This document shows, piece after piece, positions 25,604 to 38,027 of a DNA stretch of 64,000 nt. Source of the stretch: Erysipelotrichales bacterium (GTDB lineage: Bacteria; Bacillota_I; Bacilli_A; Erysipelotrichales; Erysipelotrichaceae). The first letter of the stretch is position 1. The number at the start of each line of letters is the position of its first letter. The translations under genes and the position numbers were made by a program. Under the pieces are notes generated by a model. It saw nothing but the letters and a program-made list of their open reading frames with translations, searched no databases and was not told the origin of the DNA. The stretch is from assembly GCA_910575705.1 (NCBI GenBank), contig CAJTFG010000003.1:124001-188000 (forward strand), in the 5' to 3' direction.

Positions 25604-25660
25604 GTTATACTAAGCTAACTCGTATGCTACCATCATACGCTAATTTTGTAATTTTATCAA
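25604..25660 (-). promoter_or_regulatory. feo promoter with metal-box-like repeats
   Basis: TTGATA (25655-25660), 17 bases, TATGAT (25632-25637). The inverted repeat CGTATG-N7-CATACG (25621-25639) covers the -10, and GTTAG-N6-ATAAC (25604-25619) lies between it and the ribosome site. The second matches, with one change, the palindrome GTTAG-N6-CTAAC at 27201. DtxR- or Fur-type control by iron is likely but inferred. Confidence 0.6.
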
Positions 25661-25674
25661 TCCTTATTATCAAT

Positions 25675-26988
25675 TTATTGCACTTCAACGGAATATTTAC
25701 GTTTATACATCCAATAACATACAAACGAACTTCCCATCTCCGCTGCCGGAACAACTAACCAGACACCACGCAACCCTAGCCACGGAACAAAAAAAGCCAT
25801 CGCCGCCAACACAAAAACAAATCCTTTAACCAAAGCGATTATCGTAGACAGCCGTCCTTCTTCGATCGATTGAAAATAATTCATCATCACCGTATTGATT
25901 CCCATAAATACCAATGCTGAAAAATATATGCAGATACCATTTGCCGCAAGCGCAATCAAAGAGAGATCTTTTGACGCAAAGATACCGGCAATCTGGTCCG
26001 GAAACAATAAAAACAAAAGATACAGCAGGATGGAAAAGATAAGCGTATAACGAAGGGATATCTGCCATGCCTGATGGACAGTATCCATTTTCTTCGCACC
26101 ATATCCAGAAGCGATTAACGGCTGGGAAGCCTGCGCAAAAGCAACCAAAGCTCCTTTGGCAACATAGGCGATATTCGTAATAATAGAATAAGCTGCCAAT
26201 GCCTGTTCTTTACCGACTACCAAAATAACCGCATTAAAGATAACGATGACGACTCCTGCGCTAATTTCCATGATACCGCTGCCCATTCCTGCGCTAAGCA
26301 TTCTTTTCATAGTAGGCAAGTCATAAAAATCCTTTACAAAATGAACGGTATTTCTTTTTGAAACAAAATGCAAAGAAGCGATCGTTACAGTGATCAACGG
26401 CGATATCGCGGTTGCGATACTAGCACCTGCGATCCCCATATGAAATACCATCACAAAGATATAATCCAAGATGATATTAGAAAAATTACCGACCATCACC
26501 GCAGCCATCGCCAATTTAGGATTGCCATCGCTTCTTAAAAGCGTACTGATAGCATACGTCATGACGAAGGGGATCGCCGTTATCAAGATCGGCCGCGTAT
26601 ACAATACTGTCGGAACGATCAGTTCATCACTAGCTCCTAACAGATAAGCAAATCGTTCTACAAAGACAGTCCCGCATAAACTGATAAAGGCGCCGCATAT
26701 AAACATCAATACCATGCTTAAGGTAAAGGATCGATCTTTCAAACGCTGATCACAAGAACCTTGTGCAATAGAAATCAACGTTGCACCGCCGACCCCTAAC
26801 AGCGACCCTATGGCAGAATAAAGCGTATAGATCGGCATAGCGATATTTAATGCAGCCAGACCGATACTGCCGGATCCTATCGAAATAAAATATACATCGA
26901 CAAGGCAATACAAAGAATTAGAAAGCATGCCGATAACGGTCGGTATGAGAATATGCCGATACTGTTTTGTAATACTTCCAGATTCCAT
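25675..26988 (-). CDS. MATE-family efflux transporter
   Basis: A 437-residue protein with twelve membrane spans and the internal two-fold pattern of MATE/NorM exporters, which expel drugs or metabolites with Na+ or H+. Early residues include I-P-T-V-I-G-M-L-S-N-S-L-Y-C-L-V-D-V-Y-F-I and the G-V-G-G-A-T-L-I-S block, both family-typical. The start at 26988 follows AAGGAGTGTTGT. Its own TATAAT lies about 40 bases upstream, behind the terminator of the candidate small RNA. Substrate unknown. Confidence 0.93.
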   Translation of the reverse strand: MESGSITKQYRHILIPTVIGMLSNSLYCLVDVYFISIGSGSIGLAALNIAMPIYTLYSAIGSLLGVGGATLISIAQGSCDQRLKDRSFTLSMVLMFICGAFISLCGTVFVERFAYLLGASDELIVPTVLYTRPILITAIPFVMTYAISTLLRSDGNPKLAMAAVMVGNFSNIILDYIFVMVFHMGIAGASIATAISPLITVTIASLHFVSKRNTVHFVKDFYDLPTMKRMLSAGMGSGIMEISAGVVIVIFNAVILVVGKEQALAAYSIITNIAYVAKGALVAFAQASQPLIASGYGAKKMDTVHQAWQISLRYTLIFSILLYLLFLLFPDQIAGIFASKDLSLIALAANGICIYFSALVFMGINTVMMNYFQSIEEGRLSTIIALVKGFVFVLAAMAFFVPWLGLRGVWLVVPAAEMGSSFVCYWMYKRKYSVEVQ

Positions 26989-27087
26989 ACAACACTCCTT
27001 CATGCAGCTTATTATAGCATGACAAAATAAAAAGAAAAAGCAACACCAACAGTTTGAAAAGAATATATACCTTTCTGATTTCCATAA

Positions 27088-27194
27088 AAAAGGATACGTC
27101 AAACGTATCCTTTGCTGAGTCTATTTTATTGATTAGCCAGTAATGTTATGAATGTAAAAGGAACAGCTCAGCAAGATCACACAATGTGCTTTCC
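27088..27194 (-). ncRNA. candidate small RNA (about 107 nt) under a metal-box-like palindrome
   Basis: A strong promoter at 27201-27229 would start transcription near 27194, and an intrinsic terminator (arms AAAGGATACG and CGTATCCTTT, then six T) ends it at 27088. No convincing reading frame with ribosome site lies in between. The region could instead be a leader of the MATE gene. Function unknown. Confidence 0.5.
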
Positions 27195-27200
27195 ACTTAT

Positions 27201-27229
27201 AAGTTAGCATCAACTAACTTATTTGTCAA
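27201..27229 (-). promoter_or_regulatory. promoter overlapped by a perfect 20-bp palindrome
   Basis: TTGACA (27224-27229) and TAACTT (27201-27206) are 17 bases apart. The palindrome AAGTTAGCATCAACTAACTT (27201-27220) covers the -10 and spacer. It resembles DtxR-family metal boxes and the feo box at 25604. Confidence 0.6.
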
Positions 27230-37834: not shown

Positions 37835-37854
37835 TACTTATCATACGGAGTGTT

Positions 37855-38010
37855 TTAATAGCGCCTCTTCAAATGAAGGAGTGTTATAAGTATTCCCTAT
37901 AACCCCAAGATACCTATCTGCCGATCCGTATCTTTCGGCGATGATTACCTTTCCTGCATTTCTCTGCCTGCCGGCTCCATGCAGTACTCTGATGCATCGC
38001 TGCCTCTATA
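37855..38010 (-). promoter_or_regulatory. lysine riboswitch (L-box)
   Basis: The minus strand shows the conserved L-box core in order: AGAGGCAGCGAT, AGAGTA, GGAAAGG, CGCCGAAAGATACG, TTGGGGTTATAGGG, and the closing TCCTTCATTTGAAGAGGCGC. With the downstream terminator this is a transcription-off switch at high lysine and marks the ABC genes as lysine uptake. Confidence 0.92.
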
Positions 38011-38027
38011 CTTTTGTTATATGTAAC

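Follow-up and report, generated by a model that had tools for sequence, protein, structure and literature searches.

On the minus strand of the window (the whole 64,000-nucleotide stretch analysed, from an Erysipelotrichales bacterium), a candidate small RNA gene lies upstream of a gene encoding a MATE-family efflux transporter. The following features, all on the minus strand, were identified at the RNA unit and elsewhere in the window.

27224..27229, minus: -35 hexamer TTGACA of the RNA promoter (sequence), with a TTGACA-box spacing identical in 66 loci of other genomes and at the second feo operon
27201..27206, minus: -10 hexamer TAACTT with TG-N before it, an extended -10 (sequence)
27199..27222, minus: candidate iron operator ATAAGTTAG-TTGATG-CTAACTTAT, overlying the spacer and the -10 (box searches)
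27086..27194, minus: candidate small RNA, ~108 nt, its start placed from the -10 and its end from the terminator (no credible frame, folding)
27142..27165, minus: antisense seed UGUUCCUUUUACAUUCAUAACAUU in a predicted exposed loop, 23/24 complementary to a rubrerythrin mRNA over its AUG
27086..27110, minus: intrinsic terminator GGATACGT-TTG-ACGTATCC-TTTTTT (folding, sequence)
27011..27019, minus: perfect extended -10 TGC-TATAAT (TGCTATAAT), probably a separate MATE promoter (sequence)
25675..26988, minus: MATE-family efflux transporter gene with Shine-Dalgarno sequence AAGGAG at 27000-26995, probably outside the RNA unit
25604..25619, minus: second copy of the box, GTTATACTAAGCTAAC, between the feoA promoter and feoA (FeoA by Pfam)
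27554-27332 and 21825-21555, minus: copies of a dispersed cassette
37851-38016, minus: lysine riboswitch (Rfam RF00168, 70 bits)

The two hexamers of the RNA promoter are 17 nt apart and span 27229-27201 (minus), in agreement with the TTGACA-N17-TAACTT of the initial annotation, which left the strand unstated. The perfect 20-bp palindrome described there proved to be a 24-bp inverted repeat (27222-27199) whose 9-bp arms match perfectly and whose 6-nt centre is not palindromic. Downstream of the putative start, ~84 non-coding bases precede the terminator, which is present at 27110-27086 (minus) as claimed. The longest open stretches of the unit are 16-23 codons and none has a convincing ribosome-binding site, bearing out the earlier view that the unit holds no credible reading frame.

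The RNA has a predicted folding energy of -29 kcal/mol, below that of all 200 dinucleotide shuffles (z about -3.1 to -3.3), a stability owed largely to the terminator, with the RNA body alone at z -1.7. In the predicted fold, a small 5' hairpin is followed by a long stem (UUGCUGAG/CUCAGCAA) around a large open loop and then by the terminator. The antisense seed is mostly unpaired in this fold, with a mean unpaired probability of 0.77.

Directly upstream of the RNA promoter lies one member of a dispersed family of cassettes, units of 210-270 bp that start with GCACGATTTCTGT, end with CAGCGTCCGGCTCTG and contain a frame TIS...QRPAL with a highly variable interior. There are ~24 copies in ~480 kb of the host genome, including, outside the window, copies at L025 (2562 and 2962), L134 (160 and 573), L138, L139, L142-L146, L150 and L155. 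The cassettes resemble the C-terminal ends of FGE/lectin-like domains and are perhaps silent recombination or diversity-generation cassettes.

The promoter box and its probable regulator

The full box AGTTAG-N6-CTAACT occurs with zero mismatches at only one place in the host genome, the RNA promoter. When up to one mismatch to GTTAG-N6-CTAAC is allowed, the window contains 5 sites as compared to 0.86 expected, a count reached by none of 100 shuffles. The feo-promoter site reported in the initial annotation is among them: GTTATACTAAGCTAAC at 25604-25619 differs from GTTAG-N6-CTAAC by one change and from the full box by two mismatches. Before a second feo operon, whose first product is FeoA-like by reading of its sequence, two one-mismatch boxes stand in tandem 29 bases apart (C1:285856/285885), one of them behind a TTGACA at the same spacing as in the RNA promoter. 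A two-mismatch box is also found upstream of a ZIP transporter gene.

The exact promoter-plus-box pattern TTGACANNTAAGTTAGNNNNNNCTAAC, which has 19 fixed bases, was found at 66 loci in the genomes of other species, as compared to ~2 expected (equal base frequencies assumed, estimated from the size of the collection). At least 26 of these 66 loci are followed within 1.5 kb by a FeoA/FeoB-like signature, and others lie ahead of flavodoxin-like, ZIP-like, FecCD-like and DtxR-like genes, named by reading their translations. Within the family, variants of the box lie before flavodoxin-like genes (L104, L105, L119; L061 shares its box and gene with L104) and before DtxR-type regulator genes themselves (L122, L123, L126, L128). 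A sister-family genome (L003) carries the box with feoA and an adjoining divergent DtxR-family gene.

Two other groups of boxed genes were observed. Enolase genes, unexpected members of an iron regulon, follow the box in several sister-family genomes (L002, L004, L005, L007, L097). In Gastranaerophilales and similar MAGs the box is directly before a gene for a small conserved protein, DLKVFMHHIYEYKKGLRxLILTTEK (L045, L055, L072-L074, L077, L081, L083, L087, L089, L090).

The search for the same box elsewhere, which the initial annotation had proposed as a check, thus placed it upstream of two feo operons and one ZIP gene in the host and, in other genomes, upstream of feo, flavodoxin-like and DtxR-regulator genes; we read the box as an iron operator on the strength of this company, and the association points to control of the RNA promoter by an iron regulator. 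The host genome has a single DtxR-family gene (Fe_dep_repr, C1:289915), ~4 kb away from the second feo operon and its boxes, and the product of this gene matches both the MntR and the DtxR models of NCBIfam below their cut-offs. With this repressor gene present and the box before iron genes, the box set resembles a DtxR regulon, with binding suggested by association, and a DtxR-family protein rather than Fur is most likely the regulator. Fur control was rejected: the lone Fur-family gene of the genome adjoins a second rubrerythrin gene and is PerR-like by context. Since feo and flavodoxin-like genes stand under the box, iron fits better than manganese, and manganese control is disfavoured.

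Complementarity to a rubrerythrin start

A BLAST search of the whole host genome with the RNA returned the start of a rubrerythrin gene as the top match (23/24, E 1.3e-4, as compared to E 0.14 for the next match), although ATGAATNTAAAAGGAA is a rather common type of gene start and the E-value may therefore overstate the significance. Words similar to ATGAATNTAAAAGGAA were found elsewhere by chance in a search of 272 genomes of the family. The rubrerythrin gene (C1, L027 517-1056, minus; NCBIfam rubrerythrin above cut-off) is the second of a pair, behind a gene for a rubredoxin-domain protein. Its mRNA, UAGGAGGA-AAUGUUAUGAAUUUAAAAGGAACA, and the RNA segment UGUUCCUUUUACAUUCAUAACAUU are antisense to one another across the AUG, with 23 of 24 positions in Watson-Crick pairs. 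The 24-nt duplex would begin 6 nt ahead of the AUG and reach codon 6, with the Shine-Dalgarno sequence AGGAGG immediately upstream of it.

Among 447 start regions from ~480 kb of the host genome, rubrerythrin ranks first for duplex formation with the loop alone (-32.7 kcal/mol, z -5.6; second -25.9). The loop alone discriminates between start regions; duplex energies of the full RNA do not, as long duplexes obtain good scores even when imperfect. Of 200 mononucleotide-shuffled RNAs, 1 reached a 23-pair run across the start regions with G-U pairs and one mismatch allowed, a chance probability of about half a percent by a rather lenient count that does not yet require the target to encode an iron protein. 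Cofolding of the RNA with the rubrerythrin mRNA gains -20.4 kcal/mol. No such complementarity is seen for the second rubrerythrin, whose gene is close to the Fur-family gene (-14.2 kcal/mol). Two weak extra targets, an ABC ATPase resembling SufC and a groEL-like start, were dropped, their 16 paired bases being at the level of the shuffles. On the plus strand the RNA unit reads MNVKGTAQQDHTMCFPLIS, without a ribosome-binding site, and the seed may possibly have originated as a captured fragment of a rubrerythrin start, to which the likeness covers only ~25 bases.

The covariance models of Rfam gave no RNA match at the gathering score, and a relaxed threshold yielded only chance-level matches with E of 2 or more. 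When 60 relatives were searched at the DNA level, only the promoter box turned up, in genomes of sister families, and the RNA body did not. The RNA body has no homologue in the 272 family genomes, where only short chance-like matches were found; the seed-overlapping matches that were checked (L159, L166, L177) are not rubrerythrin.

In other genomes the same box stands before more short units without a gene, several of which have a terminator-like end (L068/L091, L098/L103, L088, L109). A ~110-nt iron-box RNA, predicted at L068 (613-760, plus) and L091 (reverse strand), is 97% alike in two Lachnospiraceae genomes and ends with AGAACCCTTTCACACAGGGTTCTTCTTTATT; the downstream genes differ between both genomes. 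Another, in two Clostridia MAGs (L098, L103 on the reverse strand, and L201), contains the anti-Shine-Dalgarno segment CUCCUUAAGUUAAUAAAA. The L103 RNA (query 7-24) can pair with the Shine-Dalgarno region of the reverse rubrerythrin of its own genome (95%, E about 1), and about ten paired bases are retained with the corresponding leader of the sister genome G298. This pairing is only suggestive because anti-Shine-Dalgarno segments are generic. A broader scheme, which we regard as doubtful, is that several unrelated small RNAs of gut Bacillota are driven by DtxR-type iron boxes and evolved repeatedly and independently to silence rubrerythrins, by a 24-nt AUG antisense here and, in L098/L103, by an anti-Shine-Dalgarno segment, which in one of the two MAGs pairs with the leader of a reverse rubrerythrin.

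Proposed function and known iron-sparing RNAs

We propose that the unit probably encodes an iron-repressed, trans-acting antisense RNA that blocks the translation of rubrerythrin. The promoter, the operator, the terminator, the common box and the complementarity are seen in the sequence; the exposure of the loop is predicted from the fold. When iron is sufficient, the lone DtxR-family repressor would occupy ATAAGTTAG-N6-CTAACTTAT and block RNA polymerase at the promoter. As iron falls, the repressor would be released and the RNA made together with the feo uptake systems, the transcript stopping at its own terminator. The large loop that the UUGCUGAG/CUCAGCAA stem keeps open would then pair over 24 nt across the rubrerythrin AUG, so that the ribosome would be excluded, initiation on the iron-rich rubrerythrin blocked and iron spared for other uses. 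We infer the transcription, the repressor binding, the iron response and the translational block in this scheme from these elements. Hfq was not found in the genome by its Pfam model, and a long, near-perfect 24-nt duplex may act without it. The shared box and the iron-protein target support the earlier suggestion of an iron- or manganese-controlled RNA and refine it to iron and a DtxR-family regulator.

Other explanations of the unit were considered. An iron-controlled small RNA might have a target other than rubrerythrin, the complementarity having arisen by chance or from a captured gene start and the RNA acting on other targets or through protein binding. We consider this unlikely: only one strong target was found, no homologue of the RNA body was found in the 272 family genomes and such gene-start words are common (the start of a HAD-hydrolase-like gene, for example, is matched exactly over 15 nt), but the 23/24 match is far above any other place in the genome and lies antisense, exactly on the AUG of an iron protein and in a predicted exposed loop. 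Alternatively, the RNA might be a regulated leader (attenuator) of the MATE gene, with read-through of the terminator giving iron-controlled MATE expression, as the shared strand and the position of the terminator end 98 bases upstream of the MATE start would allow. That the RNA is a mere MATE leader is distinctly unlikely because the MATE gene has its own extended -10, TGCTATAAT, downstream of the terminator, and a well-placed Shine-Dalgarno sequence. The RNA also matches no riboswitch or other Rfam family, and the terminator stem is formed in the predicted fold with no anti-terminator seen. Probably, then, the RNA gene stands by itself.

It is very improbable, in our view, that the unit encodes a very small iron-controlled protein (for example VILLSCSFYIHNITG or VESTLCDLAELFLLHS) in the manner of MntS of E. 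coli. Two short open stretches are available for it, but they have non-ATG starts and no convincing ribosome-binding site, the RNA is predicted to form a stable structure, and the antisense complementarity accounts for the same bases.

If an iron-repressed antisense RNA against rubrerythrin is indeed encoded here, an anaerobic gut bacterium would shed an oxidative-stress iron protein at low iron by means of a DtxR-controlled RNA, and its single long-duplex target would make the proposal directly testable. No iron-sparing small RNA has been described for Erysipelotrichaceae in the literature searched. Iron-sparing RNAs under a DtxR-type instead of a Fur regulator are rare, MrsI being the one found, and the box offers a handle for finding such RNAs across many uncultured gut lineages.

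The proposed logic is like that of RyhB and PrrF, RNAs that repress iron-using proteins and are themselves repressed by an iron regulator. RyhB and PrrF depend on Fur and Hfq and have many targets, whereas the candidate RNA has one strong target in a genome where Hfq was not found. In Gram-positive bacteria, the iron-repressed RNAs FsrA (Bacillus subtilis) and IsrR (Staphylococcus) reduce the synthesis of iron proteins through base pairing with mRNAs (PMC9410917). These are Fur-controlled and present C-rich single-stranded regions, whereas the candidate RNA has a DtxR-type box, a U-rich seed covering the AUG and no Rfam match. MrsI (ncRv11846) of Mycobacterium tuberculosis is an iron-sparing RNA of ~100 nt with a box for IdeR, a DtxR-family protein, in its promoter; it is predicted to be down-regulated by IdeR and targets iron-protein mRNAs in a host without Hfq (PMC8628891, PMC9410917). 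MrsI acts on hypF and bfrA through a 6-nt seed, as compared to the 24-nt near-perfect duplex over the rubrerythrin AUG, and the box GTTAG-N6-CTAAC differs in type from that of MrsI; no sequence relation is known between the two RNAs. With its iron-box promoter, short non-coding unit ending in a terminator and complementarity to an iron-protein start, the candidate RNA is best read as a member of the RyhB/FsrA/MrsI kind without an Rfam relative, and MrsI is the nearest known system in regulator type (IdeR box) and size.
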